Assembly (NCBI GenBank): GCA_027322565.1
Contig: DAHVRG010000200.1
Span: forward strand, 1-14,857
Source of the DNA: Georgenia sp.
GTDB taxonomy: Bacteria; Actinomycetota; Actinomycetes; Actinomycetales; Actinomycetaceae
Length of the DNA: 14,857 nucleotides
Direction of reading: 5' to 3'
Under the pieces are notes generated by a model that worked only from the letters and a program-made list of their open reading frames with translations, searched no databases and had not been told where the DNA came from. The position numbers and the translations under genes are program-made. How positions within the stretch are numbered: position 1 is the first letter of the stretch; each line of letters begins with the position of its first letter. Below are positions 4,095 through 14,756 of the stretch, in pieces.

Positions 4095-4796
4095 TCAGCG
4101 CGTCACCCACACCGCCGCCACCGCCGGGTCGCCCAGCTCGACCTCCTGCCCCTGCGACTCCCCCGGCTGGGTCACGGTGAACAGCGTCGTCCCGACGTAG
4201 GGCCGGGTCTCGACGACGGTCACCTCCGCGTCCAGCCGCACGCCGACGTCGCCGAGGTGCCGCAGCACCTGGGGCTCGGCGTCGGAGATACGCACGACGC
4301 GCCCGCCCTCGCCGGCGGGAGTCTCGGCCAACGGCCGGGCCTGCGGCACCGAGACCTCCCCGTCGCCGCTCGGGATCGGGTCCCCGTGCGGGTCCCGGAC
4401 GGGGTGGCCGAGGAGCGCGTCGACCCGCTCGATGAGGAGGTCGGAGACGGCGTGCTCGAGCACCTCGGCCTCGTCGTGGACCTCGTCCCACGCGTAGCCC
4501 AGGTGCTCCACGAGGAGGGTCTCGATGAGCCGGTGGCGACGCACCATCTTCAGCGCCGCCCGCCGGCCGGGGCCGGTGAGCGAGATGCCGCCGTACCGCT
4601 CGTGGTGGACGAGCCCCTCCTCGGCAAGCCGCCGGACGGTCTCCGAGGCGGTCGACGCGGACACCCCCATGCGGCTCGCGAGCGCGCTCACGCTCATCGC
4701 CGGCCCACCCCACTCCACCGCGGAGTAGATGGCCTTGAGGTAGTCCTGGGTGACGTTCGAGGTGGGCAGCACGGTGCCGCCGTCACGTGTACTCAC
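4095..4796 (-). CDS. DtxR-family metalloregulator, MntR-like (manganese type by its ligands)
   Basis: A 233-residue protein with the three-domain DtxR/IdeR layout: winged HTH (about 15-75, TQDYLKAIYSAVEWGG, then MSVSALASRMGVSASTASETVRRLAEEGLV), metal-binding/dimerisation domain (about 80-145) and a C-terminal FeoA/SH3-like domain (about 157-233). The primary metal site reads H107...E111-x-x-E114-H115. Iron-sensing DtxR/IdeR has Cys at the position of E111, while manganese-sensing MntR has Glu. Asp18 replaces DtxR Met10, as in MntR, although MntR Glu11 is Lys21 here. His88 and Glu92 match the ancillary site. The GTG start overlaps the VKOR stop by 4 nt (GTGA), implying translational coupling; an in-frame GTG at the ninth codon is an alternative. 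It probably represses Mn/Fe uptake genes elsewhere when metal is replete. Confidence 0.88.
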   Translation of the reverse strand: MSTRDGGTVLPTSNVTQDYLKAIYSAVEWGGPAMSVSALASRMGVSASTASETVRRLAEEGLVHHERYGGISLTGPGRRAALKMVRRHRLIETLLVEHLGYAWDEVHDEAEVLEHAVSDLLIERVDALLGHPVRDPHGDPIPSGDGEVSVPQARPLAETPAGEGGRVVRISDAEPQVLRHLGDVGVRLDAEVTVVETRPYVGTTLFTVTQPGESQGQEVELGDPAVAAVWVTR

Positions 4797-5500
4797 AGAA
4801 TCAGCATCCACTGGTCCCAGAAGACGAACCCGATGAGGAAGAGGACGACCGCGTACCACACGACGATGACGAGGGCGCGGTCCTGGACGAGGAACCGCCG
4901 CAGCCCCTCCGGCGCGGGCACGTGCCGTCCCTGCAGCCCGCGGGCGAGGACGTTGACCACGATGGGGATGGTCACCGCCCAGACGACGAGGCAGTAGGGG
5001 CACAGGCCGCGGAGGTTGACGAAGGCCTGGTACTGGAACCACGTGATGGAGGCCGCGGCGAGCACCGAGCCGACCATGAGGAGCACCCAGTAGAACCGCG
5101 GGAGCCGGCCGCCGCCGAGGAGCGCGAGCCCGCTTGCCGTGACGATGCTGAAGGCGATGGTGCCGAGCAGCGCGTTGGGCACCCCGAGTGCAGCGGACTG
5201 CCAGCTGAGGACGAACTTGCCGCAGCCGATGAGCGGGTTGAGGTCGCAGCCGAGCGCCGCGTCCGGGTCCCGGAGCAGGGTCTGCTGGGAGAGCACGAGC
5301 ATGACCGCGGCCCACGTCCCGAGCGCCCCGCCGACGGTGAGCAGCCATCCGAGGCCGCGGGGGGCGCCACCGGCGAGCTGGTGCTCCGTGGGTCGCGCGG
5401 GGTCGAGCTCGGCCAGCGCCCGCTCCTCGGCGAGGAGCTCCTCCTCGGTGAGCACGTCGTCGCTGCCCGTCGCCTCCCCCGCCCGCGGGTGCTGGCTCAT
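4793..5500 (-). CDS. Vitamin K epoxide reductase (VKOR) family thiol oxidoreductase
   Basis: A 235-residue membrane protein. After a soluble acidic N-terminus (1-50) come about five membrane segments (roughly 52-70, 107-128, 135-155, 168-188 and 207-226). The two cysteine pairs of VKOR are present: the loop pair C85 and C93 (GCDLNPLIGC) and the quinone-side pair CPYC (C167, C170), together with the GVPNALLG segment typical of bacterial VKOR. In actinobacteria VKOR replaces DsbB, passing electrons from a DsbA-like thioredoxin to quinone so that exported proteins gain disulfides. A GGAG site lies about 8 nt before the ATG. The ATG overlaps the stop of the upstream phosphoesterase (ATGA) and the gene's own stop overlaps the MntR-like start (GTGA). 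No DsbA-like partner is in the window. Confidence 0.93.
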   Translation of the reverse strand: MSQHPRAGEATGSDDVLTEEELLAEERALAELDPARPTEHQLAGGAPRGLGWLLTVGGALGTWAAVMLVLSQQTLLRDPDAALGCDLNPLIGCGKFVLSWQSAALGVPNALLGTIAFSIVTASGLALLGGGRLPRFYWVLLMVGSVLAAASITWFQYQAFVNLRGLCPYCLVVWAVTIPIVVNVLARGLQGRHVPAPEGLRRFLVQDRALVIVVWYAVVLFLIGFVFWDQWMLIL

Positions 5501-7359
5501 TCGCGCTCCGTTCCTGCCGACGCGTCCGCGTCGGTCGGCTCCTCGGTGGACTCCTGCTCACCAGTATCGCCGCTCGGGGCGGCCTCGTCTGCCGGCCGCG
5601 GGAAGCTGTACCAGCGGCCGAGCTCGACGCCGGCGTCGGTGCCGACCGTGATGACGCGGTAGTCGAGCGGGCGCCCGCTCGCGGCGTCGACCCGCAGCAC
5701 CGTCATCTCGGCCGGGCCGTTGAGCGGGCCGATGGTCGCGCCCCCGGAGGCACCGGCGGTGCTCGCCCCGACGTAGCGGTTACCCCGCCCGAGGAGCTCC
5801 GGCCCTTCGCGCCGGTGCCAGTGGCCGGAGAGCGCGAGCCGGACGCAGCCGTCCTCCAGGGCCGGGACGGCGGCGACCGGGTTGTGGACGAGGAGCAGGT
5901 CGACCCGCCCCTCGGCGCACGCGGTCTCGGCGAGCCGCTCGCCCATCTCCGGTACGGACTCCTCCCGCTCCGGCCGGGTCCCCTCGCCGATGGCGGTGAG
6001 CGTGGGGTCCGTGTCGCCCAGCATCCGGATTCCGGCCACCTCGACGACGTCGCCGTCGAGGACGACGTACCCGGCGTCGCGCATCTGCTCGGCGGTGGTG
6101 ACCGAGTCGTGGTTGCCGGTGGAGACGACGAGCGGGACGTCGTCGGGGATGGCCCCGGCGAAGGCGTTGACGCAGTAGGACTCCACCGACGTCCCGCTCA
6201 TCACGGTGTCCCCGGTGTCGAGCACGGCCTTGGCACCGCTGAGCCGCACCGCGGTCGCGATGACCGAGGCCATCCCGACGTTGCAGTGGAGGTCGCTCAC
6301 GTGGAGGAAGGTCACCGGCTCGACGCGGCGCCGTGCGGTCGGCTCCGCCCGGGCGGGCATCGGCATCCCGGCACCCGGTGCCGCGGTGTCGTCAGTGGTC
6401 TCCGGTGAGGGGCCCGCGTCGGGGGACGGTCCGTCGGTCGGGTCCGGTGACGCGGGGTGGGTCGGCGACCCGTCCGCGCCGACTCCCTGGGGGTCTGCCG
6501 GCGCGGGGCTGACGATCGGGATACCGGGGGGCCGCAGTGGAGAGCGGCTCTCGGCGTAGGCGGCCTCGAGGTTCGCGGTGACCGAGGCGTAGAACGTCTC
6601 GTTCTCCTCGTAGGCGTCGACGAGATAGCCGCCGTAGGTGTCGATGAGCTGGGCCATGCGGCCGGTCATCCGCAGGTCCTCCATCGGGGTGCCGGCCAGC
6701 GCCCGGATGGTCGTGCCCTCGGCGGGCCGGTCCCGGACCGCGCCGGCGACGGGCACCGCGACGAGCCCGACGACGACGGCGCCGACGAGCGGGACGACTC
6801 CGGGCCGGCGCGCGGCGGTCGCGAGCTCGCGGCGCAGCAGCCCGCGCGAGGCGAAGCGCCCGCCGGCGATGAGGACGAGGAGGCCGGACCACATGACGAC
6901 ACCGCGCCCCAGGGCGTCCCGCCCCAGGGCCAGGGCGGCGTCGGCGACCGCGGCCTCGGGCTGGGAGACGAGCTGGGCGTAGGCGGCGAGGTCACCCGCC
7001 AGGCCGGTGACCGGGCTCGGCTGGACCGCGGTCAGCTCCATCGGGATCTCATGGACGGTGACCTCCACGCCGAGCGGCCACGGCAGCGGGGAGTCGAGCA
7101 GGACCGACCCGAGCGGGCCGAGGTCGATGACGATCTCGTGCTGCGGGGTCACCGCGTAGTGCGCGGCGTGGGGGCCGAGGGAGGAGTCCGTCGCGGCGGT
7201 GAGCACACCGAAGAGCGCCGAGGCGAGCCCGGTGACGAGCAGCGTGAGAGTGGTGCGGATGACGCGTCGCGTCGTCGTCGTCTGGCGGTGCCACCACTCC
7301 CAGCGCCGCCGCGGCTGCGGTGCGGGCCCGGCTCCGTCGTGCTCGTCCTCGTGCTGCAT
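5497..7359 (-). CDS. Membrane-anchored calcineurin-like metallophosphoesterase
   Basis: A 620-residue protein. The N-terminal part has three membrane segments (about 36-55, 153-168 and 188-207). The arginine-rich flanks at 31-35 and 172-185 put the loop 56-152 and everything after 207 outside the cytoplasm. A Pro/Thr/Asp-rich linker (about 265-345) leads to a calcineurin-like phosphoesterase domain (348-600) with all motifs: DLH (D356, H358), GD (D384), GNHD (N416, H417, D418), LVH (H492) and GHWH (H513, H515), which bind two metals such as Mn or Fe. The tail after about 590 is acidic and disordered. The substrate is unknown. The ATG at 7359 is chosen because family-like sequence begins just after it; a GTG one codon upstream is possible and the ribosome binding site is weak. 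It is first in the operon with VKOR and the MntR-like gene. Confidence 0.88.
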   Translation of the reverse strand: MQHEDEHDGAGPAPQPRRRWEWWHRQTTTTRRVIRTTLTLLVTGLASALFGVLTAATDSSLGPHAAHYAVTPQHEIVIDLGPLGSVLLDSPLPWPLGVEVTVHEIPMELTAVQPSPVTGLAGDLAAYAQLVSQPEAAVADAALALGRDALGRGVVMWSGLLVLIAGGRFASRGLLRRELATAARRPGVVPLVGAVVVGLVAVPVAGAVRDRPAEGTTIRALAGTPMEDLRMTGRMAQLIDTYGGYLVDAYEENETFYASVTANLEAAYAESRSPLRPPGIPIVSPAPADPQGVGADGSPTHPASPDPTDGPSPDAGPSPETTDDTAAPGAGMPMPARAEPTARRRVEPVTFLHVSDLHCNVGMASVIATAVRLSGAKAVLDTGDTVMSGTSVESYCVNAFAGAIPDDVPLVVSTGNHDSVTTAEQMRDAGYVVLDGDVVEVAGIRMLGDTDPTLTAIGEGTRPEREESVPEMGERLAETACAEGRVDLLLVHNPVAAVPALEDGCVRLALSGHWHRREGPELLGRGNRYVGASTAGASGGATIGPLNGPAEMTVLRVDAASGRPLDYRVITVGTDAGVELGRWYSFPRPADEAAPSGDTGEQESTEEPTDADASAGTERE

Positions 7360-7420
7360 CACGGGCCATTGTCGCCCACCTGCGCAGAACGCGTGCCGAG
7401 CGGCGCCGGATGTGGTTCTC

Positions 7421-7430
7421 TCACAGGTGA
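7421..7430. promoter_or_regulatory. Short palindrome in the divergent phosphoesterase/ligase gap
   Basis: TCAC-AG-GTGA is a short perfect inverted repeat in the 102-bp divergent region, 31 bp upstream of the ligase ATG. It could be a regulator half-site pair, but a repeat this short is expected by chance fairly often. I found no clear -35/-10 pair for either gene here. Confidence 0.2.
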
Positions 7431-7461
7431 CAGCACCCGCGCGTCCTGCCGAGGAGCAACG

Positions 7462-8937
7462 ATGGGCGACGAGATCACGGGGACGACCTTCAGCCGCGCG
7501 GACCACGCCCGCTACCGGGCCAAGGTGCGCCGCTGCCTCGACACCCTGGAGTCGATGCTGGCCGCCGGGGTGTTCGTCGAGGACGAGTGGCGCACCGGCC
7601 TGGAGATCGAGATCCACCTGGTCGACGGCGAGCGGCGCCCGTTCCTCGGCAACGCCGAGGTGCTCGAGCGCATCGCCGACCCGCTCTACCAGACCGAGCT
7701 CGGCCGGTTCACCATCGAGCTCAACGTCGAGCCGCGGCGGATCGACGGCACGTCGCTCGAGCAGCTGGAGAGCGCGCTGCGGCGCAACCTCAACCGGGCC
7801 CGCGACCGGGCCGGCGACGCGGGCGCCGACCTCGTCATCATCGGCATCCTGCCCACCCTCGCCGCGGAGCAGGAGGGCCGGGCGTGGTTCAGCGACAGCG
7901 ACCGCTACCGGGCGCTGGACGACGCCGTCATGGCCTCACGGCGGGAGGACATCACGCTGAAGATCGACGGCCACGAGCCGCTGTCGGAGACGATGGACTC
8001 GATCTTCGCCGAGGCGGCGTGCACCTCGACCCAGTTCCACCTCCAGGTCACCCCGCGCCGGTTCGCCGACTACTGGAACGCCGCACAGCTGCTCGCCGGG
8101 CCGCAGGTGGCGATGGGCGCCAACTCCCCTTACCTCTTCGGGCACCGGCTCCAGGCGGAGACCCGCATCGAGGCCTTCCTCCAGTCCACGGACACCCGCT
8201 CCCCGGAGCTGCGCAACCAGGGCGTGCGGCCGCGGGTGTTCTTCGGGGACCAGTGGATCACCTCGATCTTCGACCTCTTCGAGGAGAACGTGCGCTACTT
8301 CCCGGCACTGCTGCCGGTGAGCAGCGAGGAGGACCCGGCGGAGGTCTTCGCCTCCGGGGGCACGCCGTCGCTCGCCGAGCTGCGCCTCCACAACGGGACG
8401 ATCTACCGGTGGAACCGGCCGATCTACGACGTCCAGGACGGGCGCCCGCATCTGCGGGTGGAGAACCGGGTGCTGCCGGCCGGGCCCACCGTCGTCGACA
8501 CGATCGCCAACGCCGCCTTCTTCTACGGGATGATCGTCGAGCTCGTCACCGACGAGCGGCCACTGTGGTCGCGGATGTCCTTCGACGCCGCCCGCGAGAA
8601 CTTCGAGGCGGCCGCGCGGGAGGGCATGTCGGCCCGCTTCTACTGGCCGGGCATCGGGGAGATCTCCGCGGACGAGCTCGTGCTGCGCAAGCTGCTCCCG
8701 ATGGCGGCCCGCGGCCTGGACCGCCTCGGGGTGGACGGCGGTACCGCCGGGAAGTACCTCGACATCATCGAGTCGCGCGCCCGGCTGGGACGCAACGGCT
8801 CGACGTGGCAGGTCGCCACGGTCCACGCCCACGAGGAGCGGGGGCACGACCGGTCGGAGGCGCTGCGCCTCATGCTCGCGGACTACATGCGCGCGATGCA
8901 CACCGGCAAGCCGGTGCATGCCTGGCCGGTGCCCTGA
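7462..8937 (+). CDS. Glutamate-cysteine ligase family 2 (GCS2) carboxylate-amine ligase
   Basis: A 491-residue protein beginning 5 nt after a GAGGAG site. It has the GCS2 hallmarks: the metal/ATP-site strand GLEIEIHLVD (G46-x-E48-x-E50), FTIELNVEPRR (about 84-94), TSTQFHLQV (about 194-202), NSPYLFGHRLQAETRIEAF (about 219-237) and the LRVENRVLPAGPTVVDTIANAAFFYGMI block (about 332-359). Members join an amine to the gamma-carboxyl of glutamate or a similar acid with ATP; EgtA and YbdK are relatives. This long (about 490 aa) actinobacterial type is usually annotated glutamate-cysteine ligase, but mycothiol-producing actinobacteria do not need glutathione, so the real substrate is open; a step related to ergothioneine or another thiol is possible. 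It diverges from the phosphoesterase operon and is convergent with the gluconokinase gene. Confidence 0.85.
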   Translation: MGDEITGTTFSRADHARYRAKVRRCLDTLESMLAAGVFVEDEWRTGLEIEIHLVDGERRPFLGNAEVLERIADPLYQTELGRFTIELNVEPRRIDGTSLEQLESALRRNLNRARDRAGDAGADLVIIGILPTLAAEQEGRAWFSDSDRYRALDDAVMASRREDITLKIDGHEPLSETMDSIFAEAACTSTQFHLQVTPRRFADYWNAAQLLAGPQVAMGANSPYLFGHRLQAETRIEAFLQSTDTRSPELRNQGVRPRVFFGDQWITSIFDLFEENVRYFPALLPVSSEEDPAEVFASGGTPSLAELRLHNGTIYRWNRPIYDVQDGRPHLRVENRVLPAGPTVVDTIANAAFFYGMIVELVTDERPLWSRMSFDAARENFEAAAREGMSARFYWPGIGEISADELVLRKLLPMAARGLDRLGVDGGTAGKYLDIIESRARLGRNGSTWQVATVHAHEERGHDRSEALRLMLADYMRAMHTGKPVHAWPVP

Positions 8938-8979: not shown

Positions 8980-10494
8980 TCAGGCGCGCGGGGTGAAGGA
9001 CTCCAGGTACTCCTGGAGCTCGTCGTAGGCGCCGAGCAGACGGGCCGCCCGGCCGCGCAGCTGCGCGTACGTCGCCCGGTCCTTGCTCGAGACGGTGATC
9101 GGGTCGGCCACGTCCCCCGGGGGGCTGAGCAGGTCCACGCCCGCACCGAGGGACTCGACCTGCCCCGTCGCGTAGAGCGCGAGGATCGCCGACCCGAGGG
9201 CCGAGCCCTCGGCGTCGTCGGTCGGCACCATCGGCCGGCCGACGGTGGCCGCCATGACCTGGCGCCACAGGTCGGAGCGGAAGACCCCGCCCGTGCAGCG
9301 CACCTCGGTGACGGGCGTGACCGTGTCGAGGACGTCGACGATGCTCGCCATCTGGAGCGCCACGCCCTCGATGGCCGCGCGGATGAAGTGTCCGCGCCCG
9401 TGGGCGTGCCGCACCCCGAGGAAGGCGCCGGTGAGCTCCGGGTCCCACAGTGGGGCTCGCTCACCGAGCAGGTAGGGCAGCATGACGAGGCCGTCGCTGC
9501 CGGGCGGCACGTCCGAGGCCATGGCGAGCACCTGCGTGTCGCGCAGCGGGCCGGGCGGCACGTCCGGTGCGTAGACGTCCCCGGCCCAGCGCGCCACGAC
9601 GCCGCCGTTGCTGATCGCCGCGCCGACGACCCAGGCGTCGTCCGTCAGGGCGTAGCAGAAGAGCCGGCCGTTCTCGTCGAGCCGGGGCTCGGGGACGACG
9701 GTGCGCACGGCCCCGCTCGTCCCCATGGAGAGGCCGGCGATACCGGGCTCGATGGCACCGGTGCCGAGGTTGCCGAGGGGGCCGTCCGTGGCGCCGACGT
9801 TGACGGGGATGCCCGGGGACAGCCCGACCCGTCCGGCCGCCTCGGGGGCGAGCTCGAGCAGCGCCGTCGTCGGGAGCACGTCGGGCAGCTGTTCGCGCCG
9901 GACACCGGCGAGCTCGAGCGAGGAGTCGGCCCAGGTACCGGTGCCGAGGTCGAGCAGGCCGGAGGCGGACGCCGTCGAGCGCTCGGTGACCAGCCGGCCG
10001 GTGAGGTGGAGGAGGACGAGGTCCTTGAGCCCCACCCAGCGGTGGGCCCGCTCCGCGGTGACGGTGTCGTTACGGGCGAACCACCGGAGCTTGGTCAGCG
10101 GGCTCATCGGGTGGAGGGGCGTCCCGGAGAGGTGGAGCAGCTCCCGTGCCCGACCCTCGGCGCGCAGCTCGGCGGCCTCGACGTGGGCCCGGGTGTCGGC
10201 CCAGGTGATGATGTCGGTGACGGGCCGCAGCCCCTCGTCGAGCGCGGCCAGCCCGTGCATCGCCGACCCGACGCCGATGACGTCGACCGGGAGGTCGCCG
10301 CACGCGGCGACGACCTCCGCGAGGGCCTGGTCGACGGCCTCGAGGACCATCCCGGGGTCCTGCACCTGCCAGCGCGGCTGGGGCTCGGTGAGCCGGTACT
10401 CGCGGTAGGCGGCCACCCGCCAGCCGGACCCCGGGTCGACGGCGACGACCTTCGTCGTCGTCGTCCCGACGTCGATCCCGATGACGACCCCCAT
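8980..10494 (-). CDS. gntK: FGGY-family carbohydrate kinase, probably gluconokinase
   Basis: A 504-residue sugar kinase of the actin-like ATPase fold. Phosphate-1 motif GIDVGTTTTK is at 6-15, SAMHGLAALDE at 77-87, DIITWADTRA at 94-103, GTPLHPMSPLTKLRW at 124-138, catalytic Asp in GATDGPLGNLG (D237), GLSMGTSGAV at 254-263 and the adenosine motif CTGGVFRSDLWRQVMA in the C-terminal half. The SAMHG and GTPLHPMSPL segments resemble FGGY gluconokinases of the Bacillus GntK type more than xylulokinases or glycerol kinases. The expected reaction is ATP + D-gluconate to 6-phospho-D-gluconate. It is last of a three-gene operon, 2 bp after the dehydrogenase stop. Kinase class is certain; gluconate specificity rests on these segments and on context. 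A sugar-acid kinase with another substrate is the main alternative. Confidence 0.85.
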   Translation of the reverse strand: MGVVIGIDVGTTTTKVVAVDPGSGWRVAAYREYRLTEPQPRWQVQDPGMVLEAVDQALAEVVAACGDLPVDVIGVGSAMHGLAALDEGLRPVTDIITWADTRAHVEAAELRAEGRARELLHLSGTPLHPMSPLTKLRWFARNDTVTAERAHRWVGLKDLVLLHLTGRLVTERSTASASGLLDLGTGTWADSSLELAGVRREQLPDVLPTTALLELAPEAAGRVGLSPGIPVNVGATDGPLGNLGTGAIEPGIAGLSMGTSGAVRTVVPEPRLDENGRLFCYALTDDAWVVGAAISNGGVVARWAGDVYAPDVPPGPLRDTQVLAMASDVPPGSDGLVMLPYLLGERAPLWDPELTGAFLGVRHAHGRGHFIRAAIEGVALQMASIVDVLDTVTPVTEVRCTGGVFRSDLWRQVMAATVGRPMVPTDDAEGSALGSAILALYATGQVESLGAGVDLLSPPGDVADPITVSSKDRATYAQLRGRAARLLGAYDELQEYLESFTPRA

Positions 10495-10496
10495 GG

Positions 10497-11876
10497 TCAG
10501 CTCGCCCGCACGGACTCGAAGGAACGCAGCCGGTCGAGCATCGCCGCCCGGAGCTCCGCGTCCCCGGCGAGGTCGGGGGCGAGCTCGCCGAGGACGTTGC
10601 GCACGGCCTGCTCGTCCTCACCGGCGGCCAGTTGCTGCCAGCGCTCGGCGGCGACGTCGTTGACCGGCACCCCGGCCCCGCGCAGGTGGGCGAGCCAGGC
10701 GGCCACCGCGACGACGGCGCCCTCGGGCATCCGGCCCGCACCCCGCTCGGTCCGCAGCACCGGCCCGTGCCGCACCGGGAGCTTCTGCGAGCCGTCCATC
10801 GCGATCCGCGCAAGGACGTCCCGCATCCGCGGGTTGGCGAAACGCTCGCGCAGCGCCTCCCGGTAGCGGGCGACGTCGTCGGCGGGAACGTCGAGACTGG
10901 GCGCGGCGTCGTCCCACAGCCGCTCCACCCAGCCGCGCACCCGCTCGTCGGCGAACGCCTCGGCGACGGTCTCGTGACCGAGGACGGGCCCGGCGTAGGC
11001 CAGGAGGGAGTGGGCGCCGTTGAGGAGGAGGAGCTTGCGGCGCTCGTAGGGCTCGACGTCGTCGACGAGCGTCACTCCCGCGGTCTCCCACGCGGGGCGC
11101 CCGCCCGGGAACGACCCGGCGACGACCCACTCGGCGAACGGCTCGGTCGCGACGGGCATGGCGTCCTCGACCCCGAGCTCGCGGCGGACCAGCTCGGCGG
11201 TCTCCGCGCCGACGGCAGGGGTGATGCGGTCGACCATCGAGCTGGCGAAGTCGACGTTCTCCTCGACCCACGGCAGGAGCTTCTCGTCCACCGCGGCCCC
11301 GAGGTCGCGCACCACCCGGGCGACGACCGCGCCGTTGTCGGGGAGGTTGTCGCACGGGAGCAGCGTGATCGGGCCGGCGTCGGCGGCCTGCCGGGCGATG
11401 AGGCCGGCGACGAGCTTCCCGGGCACGCTGACCACCGGGGCGACCGGGTCGCGGCGCAGGGTCTCGATGTCGGCGACGACGTCCGGGTGGTCGAGGTCGA
11501 GGCCGCCGTCGGGGCCCCGCAGGTACCCGGCCTCGGTGACCGTGCTCGTGACGACGACGACCTCGGGGTCGCGCAGGTAGGCGAGCCACGCCGTGTGGTC
11601 GGCGGCCGCGTGGACGGCGCTCACCGAGGTGACGACCTCGAGCTCGTCCCCCTCCGGGTGGCGCACGACGAGGGTGAACAGGCCGTCCTGCGGGGCCAGC
11701 GCCCGGGCGGCGTCCGGGCGGCGGCCGGTGAACGCGGCGATCCCCCACTCGGCGCCGTCCGCGGCGTGCATCGTGTACCACGCCTGGTGTGCGCGGAAGA
11801 AGTTGCCGAGCCCGAGATGGGCGATGCGGACCGGAGGGGCCGGCTGGTCGGGGCGGCGGCTGAGGCGCTGGGTCAC
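10497..11876 (-). CDS. uxuB: Mannitol dehydrogenase-family oxidoreductase, probably fructuronate reductase (mannonate 5-dehydrogenase)
   Basis: A 459-residue polyol-specific long-chain dehydrogenase. Near the N-terminus is the nucleotide-binding turn HLGLGNFFRAH (20-30). TEAGYLR (114-120), PCDNLPDNG (174-182) and the catalytic set KLLLLNGAH follow, with Lys281, Asn286 and His289 at the spacing of the catalytic Lys/Asn/His of family mannitol dehydrogenases. The family includes mannitol, arabitol, tagaturonate and fructuronate/mannonate enzymes. Coupling to uxaC points to NADH-dependent reduction of D-fructuronate to D-mannonate (UxuB role); tagaturonate/altronate is the alternative because UxaC can also use galacturonate. 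The GTG start overlaps the uxaC stop by 4 nt (GTGA) and the gluconokinase start follows 2 bp after its stop. No mannonate dehydratase (uxuA) gene lies in the window. Confidence 0.85.
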   Translation of the reverse strand: MTQRLSRRPDQPAPPVRIAHLGLGNFFRAHQAWYTMHAADGAEWGIAAFTGRRPDAARALAPQDGLFTLVVRHPEGDELEVVTSVSAVHAAADHTAWLAYLRDPEVVVVTSTVTEAGYLRGPDGGLDLDHPDVVADIETLRRDPVAPVVSVPGKLVAGLIARQAADAGPITLLPCDNLPDNGAVVARVVRDLGAAVDEKLLPWVEENVDFASSMVDRITPAVGAETAELVRRELGVEDAMPVATEPFAEWVVAGSFPGGRPAWETAGVTLVDDVEPYERRKLLLLNGAHSLLAYAGPVLGHETVAEAFADERVRGWVERLWDDAAPSLDVPADDVARYREALRERFANPRMRDVLARIAMDGSQKLPVRHGPVLRTERGAGRMPEGAVVAVAAWLAHLRGAGVPVNDVAAERWQQLAAGEDEQAVRNVLGELAPDLAGDAELRAAMLDRLRSFESVRAS

Positions 11877-13306
11877 AGCTTGAACACCTTCTTCGGGATC
11901 GTCGTCACGAGGTCGTGTGCCGTGGCCAACGCCTCGTCCTCGGTGAGCCGGTGCTCGGCGACGAGCTCGGCGAGGTACGCCGCGTCGAGCCGGCGGGACA
12001 TGTCGTGCCGGGTGGGGATGGACAGGAACGCCCGGGTGTCGTCGATGAACCCGGAGGTGCGGTAGAACCCGGCGGTCTCCGTCACCGCCCCGCGGAAGCG
12101 CCGGATGGCCTCGGGGGCGTCGAGGAACCACCACGGCACCCCGACGTAGAGCGAGCGGTAGAAGCCGGCCATCGGCGCCAGCTCGCGGGAGAACACGGTC
12201 TCGTCGATGGTGAAGACGACGAGGTTGAGGTTCGGGTGGTTGCCGTAGCGCCCGAGCAGCGGGCGCAGCGCGTCGGTGAACTCCATCGCCAGCGGGATGT
12301 CCGAGCCGGCGTCGGCGCCGTAGCGGGCGAGGTTGTCCGGGTCGTGGTCACGGCGCACGCCGTGGTGCAGCGTCATGACGAGCCCGTCCTCGGTGGCCAT
12401 GCGCGCCGTCTCGCTCATCATGTGCCGGCGGAAGGCGACGGCCTCCGCCTCGGTGACGTCCCCGCGCAGCGCCGCGGCATAGATCCGGGCGGCCTCGCCC
12501 TCCTCCAGGGGCTCGGTGCCGGCGTCGAGGTGTGAGTGGTCGGAGGAGACCGCGCCGTGCTCCTGGAAGTAGCGGCGGCGGTTCTCCAGGGCGGCGACGT
12601 AGCCGGCGTAGTCGCCGGTGTCGACGCCGGCGACCTCACTGAGCCGGCGGGCAAGGTCGGGCCAGCCCGGGCGCGCGAGCTCGAGGAAGCGGTCCGGCCG
12701 GAAGGTGGGCACGACGCGACCGGTGAACGTCGGGTCCGCGGCCAGCGTGCGGTGCGGGGCGAGGTCGTCGAGCGGGTCGTCGGTGGTCGCCAGCACGGAG
12801 ATCCCGAAGCGCTCGAACAGGGCGCGTGGCCGGAACTCGGGCGTGGTGAGCTGCTCGGCGACCTCGTCGTAGATGGCGTCGGCAGTGGCGGCGGAGGGCA
12901 TCTGGGTGATGCCGAAGACCTCGGTGAAGGTGGTGTCGAACCAGTACTTCACCGGGGTGCCGCGGAAGAGGTGGTAGTTCTCGCACAGGATCCGCCAGGC
13001 CTTGCGGGCGGCCGCCTCGTCGAGCGGCAGCGGCCCCTCCGGTCCCCGTCCGAGGTCGCTGAGCTCGGCGCCGTTGGCGTGGAGCAGCCGCAGGACGTAG
13101 TGGTCCGGCGTGAGGAGCAGCGACGCCGGGTCGGGCCACGGCTCGTCGTCGACCAGCCACTGCGGTGGCACGTGGCTGTGCGGCCAGATGATCGGAAGGT
13201 CCTTCGTCGTGGCGTAGATCCTGCGCGCGACGTCCCGGACCTCGGGCTGGGGCGGCAGGAGGCGGTCGGGATGCACGCTCAGGGAGACCTGCGGGGCGAC
13301 GCTCAT
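11873..13306 (-). CDS. uxaC: Glucuronate (uronate) isomerase UxaC
   Basis: A 477-residue protein, close to the usual 465-470. Family segments run throughout: the N-terminal metal site IIWPHSHVPP (H43, H45), KYWFDTTFTEVFGI, ISVLATTDDPLDDL, SSDHSHLD, TLHHGVRRDHD, EFTDALRPLLGRYG, SLYVGVPWWFLDAP and a C-terminal GFIDDTRAFLSIPTRHDMSRR. It is an amidohydrolase-superfamily isomerase converting D-glucuronate to D-fructuronate, and usually D-galacturonate to D-tagaturonate, in the cytoplasm. The first histidine motif reads WPHSHV rather than the enterobacterial DYHCHL form, keeping both histidines. The start ATG has only a weak GGCGGC-like site. The gene is first of the uxaC, dehydrogenase, gluconokinase operon and diverges from the LarA-like gene across a 133-bp region holding repeats and a palindrome. 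Confidence 0.95.
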   Translation of the reverse strand: MSVAPQVSLSVHPDRLLPPQPEVRDVARRIYATTKDLPIIWPHSHVPPQWLVDDEPWPDPASLLLTPDHYVLRLLHANGAELSDLGRGPEGPLPLDEAAARKAWRILCENYHLFRGTPVKYWFDTTFTEVFGITQMPSAATADAIYDEVAEQLTTPEFRPRALFERFGISVLATTDDPLDDLAPHRTLAADPTFTGRVVPTFRPDRFLELARPGWPDLARRLSEVAGVDTGDYAGYVAALENRRRYFQEHGAVSSDHSHLDAGTEPLEEGEAARIYAAALRGDVTEAEAVAFRRHMMSETARMATEDGLVMTLHHGVRRDHDPDNLARYGADAGSDIPLAMEFTDALRPLLGRYGNHPNLNLVVFTIDETVFSRELAPMAGFYRSLYVGVPWWFLDAPEAIRRFRGAVTETAGFYRTSGFIDDTRAFLSIPTRHDMSRRLDAAYLAELVAEHRLTEDEALATAHDLVTTIPKKVFKL

Positions 13307-13345
13307 GCCGCCATCGTCCCGACCACCCCTCCCCCGCGCAATCGT

Positions 13346-13383
13346 GTTGCCAGCCCTTGCCACCGGGTTGCCGCCGGTTGCCA
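13346..13383. repeat. Four helically phased TTGCC direct repeats, candidate operator
   Basis: TTGCC occurs at 13347, 13357, 13368 and 13378, spaced 10, 11 and 10 bp, which places all four on one face of the DNA helix. Three copies extend to xTTGCCA and one to GTTGCCG. The array sits 40-77 bp upstream of uxaC and 57-94 bp upstream of the LarA-like gene, just upstream of its putative -35. This suggests cooperative binding of a regulator of the sugar-acid genes. No regulator gene for the locus is in the window. Confidence 0.55.
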
Positions 13384-13394
13384 CGGATCGTGGC
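13380..13394. promoter_or_regulatory. 15-bp palindrome, candidate repressor site
   Basis: GCCACG-GAT-CGTGGC has perfect 6-bp arms around a 3-bp centre and overlaps the fourth TTGCC repeat. It lies 7 bp upstream of the putative -35 of the LarA-like gene, a position suitable for control in both directions. No protein can be assigned. Confidence 0.4.
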
Positions 13395-13401
13395 CGCCCA
13401 C

Positions 13402-13431
13402 CTGACGGCACGCCGGGCGCGCCGCTACCGT
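13402..13431 (+). promoter_or_regulatory. Putative promoter of the LarA-like gene (leaderless start)
   Basis: CTGACG (13402-13407) and TACCGT (13426-13431), separated by 18 bp, resemble housekeeping -35 and -10 elements. The -10 ends 8 bp before the ATG at 13440 and there is no Shine-Dalgarno, so transcription may start at or next to the A of the start codon. Confidence 0.4.
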
Positions 13432-13439
13432 CTAGCACC

Positions 13440-14756
13440 ATGACGTGGTTCAAGGAGGAGGCCCGGTTCATCTCGCGGCCCCAGATCGAGGCGATGTGCG
13501 ACCGGCTCCTCGAGGAGGCCAAAGAGCGGCTCGGGATCACCGAGTACCGACGGGTGCTCCTGCTCCCGCCGGACCTCACCCGCGCCCACTCCGGGACGGG
13601 CTGGATGGCCGAGTACCTCTACCACCGGCTCGACGCCGCCGGCGCGGAGGTCCACGTCATCCCGACGCTCGGCCAGCATGTGCCGCACACCCCGGAGGAC
13701 AACCGCTGGATGTTCGGCTCCATCCCCGAGGAGCGCATCCACGCCCACGACTGGAAGGACGGCGTCGTCAACGTCGGGACGGTGCCGGCGGAGCTCGTCC
13801 GCGAGAAGACCGGTGGCGCCGTCGACTGGGAGATGCCGGTCGACCTCAACACCATGCTCATGACCGAGCAGTGGGACCTCATCGTCAACATCGGCCACGT
13901 CGTGCCCCACGAGGTGCTCGGCTTCGCCAACCACAACAAGAACTACTTCATCGGCCTCGGCGGCAAGCGCCTGCTCGGCGCCTCCCACATGGCCTCGGCC
14001 GTCTACGGCATCGAGAACAACCTCGGCAACCTCCTCACCCCGGTCCGCGCCTGCTTCAACTACGCCGAGGAGCACTTCCTCGGGCACCTGCCCGACGTCT
14101 ACCTCCAGGTCGTCATGGACTACGACGACGACGGCCGGCTCGCCCACACCGGCGTCTACGTCGGGGACGACCTCGAGACCTACTACGACGCGGCCCGTGC
14201 CTCCCGCGAGCAGAACTTCACCCTCTTCGACAAGCCGGTGCGGAAGATGGTCGCGGTCATGCAGGCCGACGAGTTCCGCGCGACGTGGGTGGCGAACAAG
14301 GCCGTCTACCGCACCCGGATGGCCATCGCCGACGGCGGCGAGCTGCTCGTCATCGCGCCCGGCGTCGAGCGGTTCGGGGAGCAGCCGGAGGTCGACGAGC
14401 TCATCCGCAGGTACGGCTACATCTCCCAGGCCGAGGTCATCGGCCTGTACCGGACGCAGCCCGACATGCAGGACATCCCGCACGGCACCGCGCACCTCGT
14501 CCACGGGTCCTCCGAGGGCCGCTTCACCATCACCTACGCGCCCGGTCACCTCTCGCAGGAGGAGATCGAGTCCGTCGGCTACCAGTACATGGACGTCGAG
14601 GAGGCGCAGCGCCGCTACGACCCCGCCGTCATGAAGGACGGGTGGAACACCATGCCCGACGGCGAGGAGGTCTTCTACATCTCCACGCCGTCGGCCGGAC
14701 TGTGGTCCACCCGGGAGAAGCTCGAGGGCCGCGACACCGAGCTCCACGGCAGCTGA
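13440..14756 (+). CDS. LarA-superfamily nickel-pincer epimerase-like protein, candidate D-gluconate/D-mannonate 2-epimerase
   Basis: A 438-residue LarA-like protein. By alignment to Lactobacillus plantarum lactate racemase I see PDLTR with D45/R48 (LarA D72/R75), TLGQH with H80 (H108), GHVVPH with H157 (H174), K167 exactly 10 residues on (K184, which carries the nickel-pincer nucleotide) and H183 26 residues after H157 (H200, nickel ligand). The segment around K167 (GFANHNKNYFIG) differs from the usual SGGxK form, so this is a divergent branch. LarA relatives racemise or epimerise 2-hydroxy acids by hydride transfer to the cofactor, and D-gluconate 2-epimerase activity is known in the superfamily. 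Beside uxaC, a mannonate-forming reductase and gluconokinase, interconversion of D-mannonate and D-gluconate fits best. Cofactor genes larB, larC and larE are not in the window. An ATG with no ribosome binding site suggests leaderless translation. Confidence 0.8.
   Translation: MTWFKEEARFISRPQIEAMCDRLLEEAKERLGITEYRRVLLLPPDLTRAHSGTGWMAEYLYHRLDAAGAEVHVIPTLGQHVPHTPEDNRWMFGSIPEERIHAHDWKDGVVNVGTVPAELVREKTGGAVDWEMPVDLNTMLMTEQWDLIVNIGHVVPHEVLGFANHNKNYFIGLGGKRLLGASHMASAVYGIENNLGNLLTPVRACFNYAEEHFLGHLPDVYLQVVMDYDDDGRLAHTGVYVGDDLETYYDAARASREQNFTLFDKPVRKMVAVMQADEFRATWVANKAVYRTRMAIADGGELLVIAPGVERFGEQPEVDELIRRYGYISQAEVIGLYRTQPDMQDIPHGTAHLVHGSSEGRFTITYAPGHLSQEEIESVGYQYMDVEEAQRRYDPAVMKDGWNTMPDGEEVFYISTPSAGLWSTREKLEGRDTELHGS

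Follow-up and report, generated by a model that had tools for sequence, protein, structure and literature searches.

By which route an actinobacterium breaks down glucuronate when its uxaC gene stands beside a gluconokinase-like gene and a homologue of larA is the question raised by contig DAHVRG010000200.1 (C220; 14,857 nt, hereafter the window) of a Georgenia sp. assembly (GCA_027322565.1; 2.17 Mb, 57% complete). On the minus strand, the window encodes a gluconokinase-like FGGY-family kinase (positions 8980-10494; 504 amino acids; Pfam FGGY_N and FGGY_C), a candidate for the conversion of gluconate into 6-phosphogluconate; a UxuB-like polyol/uronate dehydrogenase of the mannitol-dehydrogenase family (10497-11876; 459 amino acids; Pfam Mannitol_dh and Mannitol_dh_C), a candidate for the conversion of fructuronate into D-mannonate; and the glucuronate isomerase UxaC (11873-13306, start at 13306; 477 amino acids; NCBIfam NF002794). 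Divergent from these, on the plus strand, is a larA homologue of LarAH group 18 (13440-14756; 438 amino acids; NF052594) that encodes a candidate nickel-pincer D-mannonate/D-gluconate 2-epimerase; the gene finder placed its ATG at 13305, an in-frame upstream start, and the conserved protein starts at 13440. Because the dehydrogenase start overlaps the uxaC stop by 4 bases and a gap of 2 bases separates the dehydrogenase from the kinase, the three genes fit the description of a coupled operon divergent from larA that an earlier, sequence-only reading of this DNA had given, and coordinates, overlaps and profiles agree with it. The same reading had listed no mannonate dehydratase, 2-keto-3-deoxygluconate (KDG) kinase or 2-keto-3-deoxy-6-phosphogluconate (KDPG) aldolase in the window, and no Pfam match to these families was found in the nine window reading frames scanned.

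We propose, with a probability of about 0.72, that the genes of this locus form a branch of hexuronate catabolism leading from glucuronate to gluconate and dependent on a pincer cofactor from LarB and LarE, with metal insertion without LarC. UxaC would convert D-glucuronate into D-fructuronate, the UxuB-like enzyme would reduce this to D-mannonate, the group-18 LarA enzyme would invert C2 by the proton-coupled hydride transfer of LarA enzymes to yield D-gluconate, and the FGGY kinase would form 6-phosphogluconate, which 6-phosphogluconate dehydrogenase would pass into the pentose phosphate pathway with formation of NADPH. LarB and LarE, whose genes lie next to those of a TRAP transporter on a different contig of the genome, would synthesise the pincer ligand, and in the actinobacterial branch the metal would be inserted by means other than LarC, either an unrecognised insertase or the enzyme loading the metal itself. 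What the analysis shows is the identity of the genes by profile, the conservation of active-site residues, the clusters linked in relatives, and the presence of LarB and LarE with no LarC found; from these we infer the substrates, the direction of flux and the LarC-independent metal insertion. A mannonate-to-gluconate route is not new in kind. Rodionova 2012 proposed from Thermotoga that mannonate-gluconate epimerisation feeds the pentose phosphate pathway (as cited in PMC7583248 and PMC6978723), and the clustering of gntE with uronate reductase and gluconate kinase that marks the Thermotoga-type route is seen here in the order kinase-dehydrogenase-uxaC/larA.

The LarA homologue scored 586 bits against NF052594 (NPN_18_hexonate, 'nickel-dependent putative hexonate epimerase'; cut-off 500), which places it in the group 18 hexonate epimerases of the LarA superfamily, with a predicted activity. 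The name of this model indicates group 18 of the LarAH groups in Desguin 2020, where the group is hypothesised to epimerise a hexonate because its signatures resemble those of groups 19 and 20 (PMC7583248). The same work showed in 2020 that GntE1 and GntE2 convert D-mannonate into D-gluconate, and further gluconate epimerases, including LarAH15 acting on unphosphorylated D-mannonate, are described in PMC11770544. The sole PDB sequence match of the window protein was 4nar, GntE2 of Thermotoga maritima (LarAH20, D-gluconate 2-epimerase), and the fold of its AlphaFold model (pLDDT 86, pTM 0.84, from a 26-row alignment; the stretch 159-175 around the cofactor lysine mostly below pLDDT 50) matched 4nar first (E 2e-27), followed by lactate and malate racemases. 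The window protein and nine other aligned group-18 proteins all retain residues D38, R41, H73, H154, E155, K164, H180, W283 and K287 (GntE2 numbering), so that all positions for binding of the nickel-pincer cofactor (NPN) and for catalysis (D, R, H, H, K, H, K) are present in each; alignment rows L078, L080 and L081, which represent other reading frames, were left out. GntE2 thus has the LarA fold and the catalytic and cofactor-binding residues in common with the window protein, and its gene is likewise clustered with hexuronate genes and a gluconate kinase in the proposed route of mannonate into the pentose phosphate pathway, but the two proteins are 24% identical in the structure alignment and belong to different LarAH groups. 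T. maritima, run as a control, gave LarC and UxuA matches, whereas neither was found in the 57%-complete Georgenia assembly. Homologues resembling group 19, the group of Corynebacterium glutamicum GntE1 (LarAH19), occur in the same order; two of their loci (L078, L080) have uxaC, a LacI regulator and a beta-glucuronidase gene adjoining, and the two aligned proteins (L077, L079) carry the GntE loop residues and the SGG stretch. They differ from the window protein in sequence (26-29% identity where measured) and in their genomes, 43 of 44 of which have LarC.

The order of the last two steps could also be reversed, with the kinase making 6-phosphomannonate and the LarA homologue epimerising the phosphorylated acid to 6-phosphogluconate. 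In extracts of Lactobacillus suebicus, mannonate is phosphorylated first and then epimerised (PMC6978723), a route that likewise leads from mannonate to 6-phosphogluconate without KDG and differs in the order of kinase and epimerase, and the kinase of the window stays below the gluconokinase cut-off. The epimerase gene of L. suebicus is, however, not identified in that source, GntE1, GntE2 and LarAH15 act on unphosphorylated D-mannonate (PMC7583248, PMC11770544), and group 18 has the loop Glu and helix-11 Trp of these three enzymes. We therefore consider phosphorylation before epimerisation unlikely.

The enzymes on either side of the proposed epimerisation are identified with differing precision. 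UxaC is over its cut-off (535 bits against 387 for NF002794). The kinase and the reductase are candidates named by best match only: the top NCBIfam model for the kinase is gntK_FGGY (TIGR01314), at 360 bits and below its cut-off of 648, with xylulokinase second at 277, and its top PDB sequence match is 3gbt, 'Gluconate kinase', at 271 bits, the next being at 163. The dehydrogenase scored 278 bits with D-arabinitol 4-dehydrogenase, 237 with the fructuronate reductase UxuB (NF011611; cut-off 603) and 178 with tagaturonate reductase, exceeding no cut-off, and its top PDB match is 4im7, YdfI, at 256 bits. These scores bear on a second alternative, in which the substrate of the LarA homologue is another hexonate, namely altronate/allonate or an aldarate, and the operon is there for the use of galacturonate or some other acid. 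UxaC accepts galacturonate as well (PMC6353982), the dehydrogenase is over no reductase cut-off, and for group 19, which has its own link to uronic acids, Desguin 2020 suspects that the native substrate is a different one (PMC7583248). The dehydrogenase nevertheless scores higher with the fructuronate than with the tagaturonate model, a beta-glucuronidase or glucuronide-type transporter gene stands beside larE and larB (larEB) in some relatives, and gnd together with a gluconokinase-like kinase fits gluconate, so that a different hexonate as substrate appears quite improbable.

The neighbourhoods of LarA relatives were compared in 20 loci, 15 from actinobacteria (76-90% in the best segment), one from a planctomycete (66%) and four from Bacteroidales (43-46%), with the genes called crudely as the longest frames by G+C at codon position 3. 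The nearest named loci by LarA protein are those of Georgenia satyanarayanai and Oceanitalea stevensii. The sequence-only reading had looked to conservation of the four-gene neighbourhood in actinobacteria; the arrangement including the kinase was found in four of the 20 loci, all from the close relatives Georgenia and Oceanitalea, and what is more widespread is larA or larEB together with uxaC, gnd or glucuronide genes. In the four kinase-bearing loci (L002-L005), gnd, a LacI regulator gene and larE follow, and then larB and dctP in three of them (L002, L004, L005), L003 ending inside larE. In three short loci (L060, L063, L076) from a wider sample of the order described below, uxaC adjoins larA and the locus ends before any kinase. 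Ornithinimicrobium has larB-larE-gnd divergent from uxaC-dehydrogenase-larA, and in Occultella a dehydrogenase-uxaC-lacI set diverges from a row of two sugar genes, gnd, larE and larB. The larE-larB locus holds a beta-glucuronidase gene in Micropruina and G. ruanii and a gene for a glucuronide-type GPH transporter in three Georgenia (L039, L045, L046). Across the fetched larA or larEB loci of the 15 actinobacterial genomes, gnd was present in 8 and uxaC in 10; among the other five, G007 and G020 have a beta-glucuronidase gene beside larEB, G011 has gnd on a short contig, no larEB locus was fetched for G014, and G012 has none of these sugar genes. In Bacteroidales, gnd directly follows the group-18 larA in all four loci (L017-L020), an order that suggests the same gluconate outlet in another phylum; of 12 further loci, each about 4 kb long, 7 have gnd at a distance of no more than about 1.5 kb. 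This context ties LarAH group 18, of which the window protein is a member and which is still 'putative' at NCBI, to glucuronate. The family thereby gains a specific candidate substrate and pathway, backed by gene clusters from two phyla, and becomes open to direct assay.

The closest relatives also appear to have a regulatory site in common. The palindrome TGGCAA-N4-TTGCCA occurs as an exact match between lacI and larE in all four kinase-bearing loci, with two-mismatch copies before gnd and between uxaC and larA, and we regard it as a candidate operator of a LacI-type regulator. In 30 first-order Markov simulations for each of three loci, the mean number of sites was 0.1, 0.13 and 0.27. The divergent intergenic region of the window (13307-13439) contains several TTGCCA half-sites (about 13335-13385) and a single site with two mismatches at 13347, a weak version of the candidate operator.

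A LarA enzyme with a nickel-pincer cofactor would be served by LarB, LarE and LarC, and a search for larB, larC and larE was among the checks suggested with the sequence-only reading. Two of the three were found in the genome of the window, where LarB scored 275 bits (cut-off 175) and LarE 269 bits (cut-off 150); the genes lie on contig C249 in the order larE-larB-dctP-dctM together with nhaA (L033, 1-6532). The DctP/DctM TRAP transporter and the NhaA-like antiporter beside these cofactor genes are a possible uptake system for hexuronate or hexonate. LarE and LarB each exceeded the cut-off in 17 of the 21 genomes first tested, the four misses being Bacteroidales metagenome-assembled genomes (MAGs). 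LarC (PF01969) was found in two of the 21, the planctomycete and Micropruina (G020), in the latter in pieces and away from larEB. A search of 17 of these genomes with TIGR00299 at E up to 10 returned the same two LarC proteins and, in five others, short weak hits only.

We then examined the pattern in 396 genomes drawn evenly from the window's order, a sample that partly overlaps the 21 genomes, so that the two sets are not independent. NF052594 was over cut-off in 20 genomes and matched in two pieces in another (G286), giving 21 group-18 genomes, and matched more weakly in 44 more, which we took as other LarA groups, LarA proteins too distant to match the model being uncounted. In G286, the group-18 larA lies in two adjoining pieces (L076), through either a real break or a sequencing error. 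LarC was detected in 57 of the 396 genomes, and LarB was over cut-off in 77. The group-18 genomes had LarB in 21 of 21 and LarC in 0 of 21, and those with the weaker match had LarB in 42 of 44 and LarC in 43 of 44; the Fisher values computed in this analysis ignore phylogeny. LarB without LarC was found in 22 genomes, namely the 21 group-18 genomes and one 62%-complete MAG. The 21 group-18 genomes in which LarC was not found comprise the window's own assembly, which is 57% complete, and 20 others; six of the 21 are single contigs of 99-100% completeness. Another 13 genomes have LarB and LarC without an NF052594 match (G024, G034, G043, G055, G069, G071, G113, G168, G183, G191, G197, G205 and G244) and may carry other LarA groups or cofactor users other than LarA.

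One explanation is that LarC is present but too diverged for the profiles, with cofactor synthesis being ordinary. Profiles can miss diverged proteins, Micropruina does have LarC in pieces away from larEB, and the weak hits in five other genomes, with E values of 0.1-3.3, were to LarC1. These hits cover just 37-51 of the 165 model positions, though, and the same profile that detects LarC in 57 of the 396 genomes of the order and in 43 of the 44 with a weaker LarA match finds it in none of the 21 group-18 genomes, including the six single-contig ones. The partner proteins give no sign of a change either: LarE has the same RCxxC and mostly PCLAS cysteines (by the pattern used) in actinobacteria with and without LarC, and no residue separating the two sets was fixed at 90% on both sides in LarE (20 LarC-less against 22 LarC-bearing rows) or in LarB (20 against 19 rows). 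An overlooked, diverged LarC has therefore little likelihood in our view. In the LarE tree the LarC-less rows do not form one clade, with 4 changes, at least 2 of them forced by well-supported branches. Both the residue comparison and the tree are rough, as Micropruina (L037, G020) was counted as LarC-less despite its LarC pieces and one gene entered twice, as L040 and as L117. What differs between LarC-less and LarC-bearing genomes is the LarA group.

The absence of LarC could instead mean a cofactor other than the normal one. The first four Bacteroidales genomes, in which none of LarB, LarC and LarE was over cut-off, had suggested that group 18 as a whole works without the nickel pincer. This idea was dropped for Bacteroidales when 149 genomes were scanned for group 18 and LarC: group 18 was over cut-off in 22, and the 16 genomes with LarC comprised 13 of these 22 and 3 of the other 127, the nine LarC-less group-18 genomes being of unstated completeness. 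Among six fetched Bacteroidales LarC loci, larB and larE adjoin in four, larB only in one and neither in one. In Bacteroidales, then, group 18 and LarC occur together, which makes the normal nickel pincer the probable cofactor and leaves the clear lack of LarC as a feature of the actinobacterial branch. For that branch there is still the alternative that the pincer ligand works in the enzyme nickel-free or holding a different metal, with no need for LarC, which would account for LarB and LarE being kept and LarC not being found. At the cofactor-binding lysine, group 18 has AN[HY][NT]K (LarA residues 161-167; window 13920-13940) in place of the SGGxK of GntE2 and the two group-19-like proteins. 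A stretch of this kind is, however, also present in the Bacteroidales group-18 enzymes, which occur together with LarC, the cofactor-binding histidine (H180 of GntE2) is invariant, and the hydride mechanism of LarA enzymes is described with a nickel cofactor (PMC11770544), which makes a nickel-free or other-metal enzyme improbable.

With LarC loss tracking the LarA group and not the LarE lineage, the group-18 epimerase may insert the metal, or an insertase may have replaced LarC. We give about even odds to the statement that a functional pincer cofactor is made through LarB and LarE without LarC in the actinobacterial branch (Georgenia, Ruania, Occultella and kin), with either the epimerase itself binding the metal-free dithio ligand and inserting the metal or a new insertase in place of LarC. 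No replacement gene constantly beside larEB stood out in the fetched neighbourhoods, within the limits of the crude gene calling. Installation of nickel in the cofactor is assigned to LarC in PMC11796402, and no report of pincer synthesis without LarC was found in the literature searched, which mostly did not extend to subscription journals; the portions consulted of PMC12611868, PMC11851776, PMC6353982 and PMC8305020 do not mention it. The accepted three-enzyme synthesis of the nickel pincer may therefore have a hole, in that organisms with LarB, LarE and the enzyme show no LarC, which would point either to a second solution for nickel insertion or to a different cofactor. If synthesis without LarC is true, it would be a second way to form the carbon-nickel bond of the pincer.

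Several observations weigh against the proposed glucuronate-to-gluconate branch. The kinase is under the gluconokinase cut-off and the dehydrogenase under that for fructuronate reductase, a kinase orthologue lies near larA in only four of the 20 loci, and larA stands apart from sugar genes in several Georgenia, Occultella and Ruania relatives. In G012 (L013, L035), larA is near larE and larB and no uxaC, gnd or beta-glucuronidase gene was found nearby; the short flanks of 5 of the 12 further Bacteroidales loci showed no gnd; and the candidate operator was not found in the Ornithinimicrobium locus and, among loci with larA on its own, only in L007, just before larA. No assayed group-18 enzyme was found in the same body of literature. 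UxuA, which as part of a functional, co-regulated uxuA/kdgK pair elsewhere in the genome had been named as a possible refutation, was not found in 13 of 17 genomes, the seven named Georgenia among them, nor in the window's own, 57%-complete assembly, which favours the proposed branch; its presence in 4 of the 17, which also have group-18 LarA, counts against it. The genome searches for the alternative route covered UxuA and left out enolase-superfamily mannonate dehydratases, KDG kinase and KDPG aldolase. To the route from glucuronate through fructuronate, mannonate and gluconate to 6-phosphogluconate and the pentose phosphate pathway, as first read from the sequence, the group-18 LarA, larE and larB in the same genome and gnd in the clusters of relatives lend support. 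The route is not new in kind, the four-gene neighbourhood with this kinase is confined to close relatives among the 20 loci, and the absence of larB, larC or larE, which that reading had named as a refutation, applies in part, LarB and LarE having been found and LarC not.

PF02595 was examined in the Georgenia genome and led nowhere. Adjoining the operon, the window at 4095-8937 encodes a DtxR-type metal regulator with a FeoA domain, a VKOR protein, a metallophosphoesterase and a protein with a glutamate-cysteine-ligase match slightly under the Pfam cut-off. In L039, L040, L042, L045 and L046, too, genes related to those for the VKOR protein or the phosphoesterase are found near larEB.

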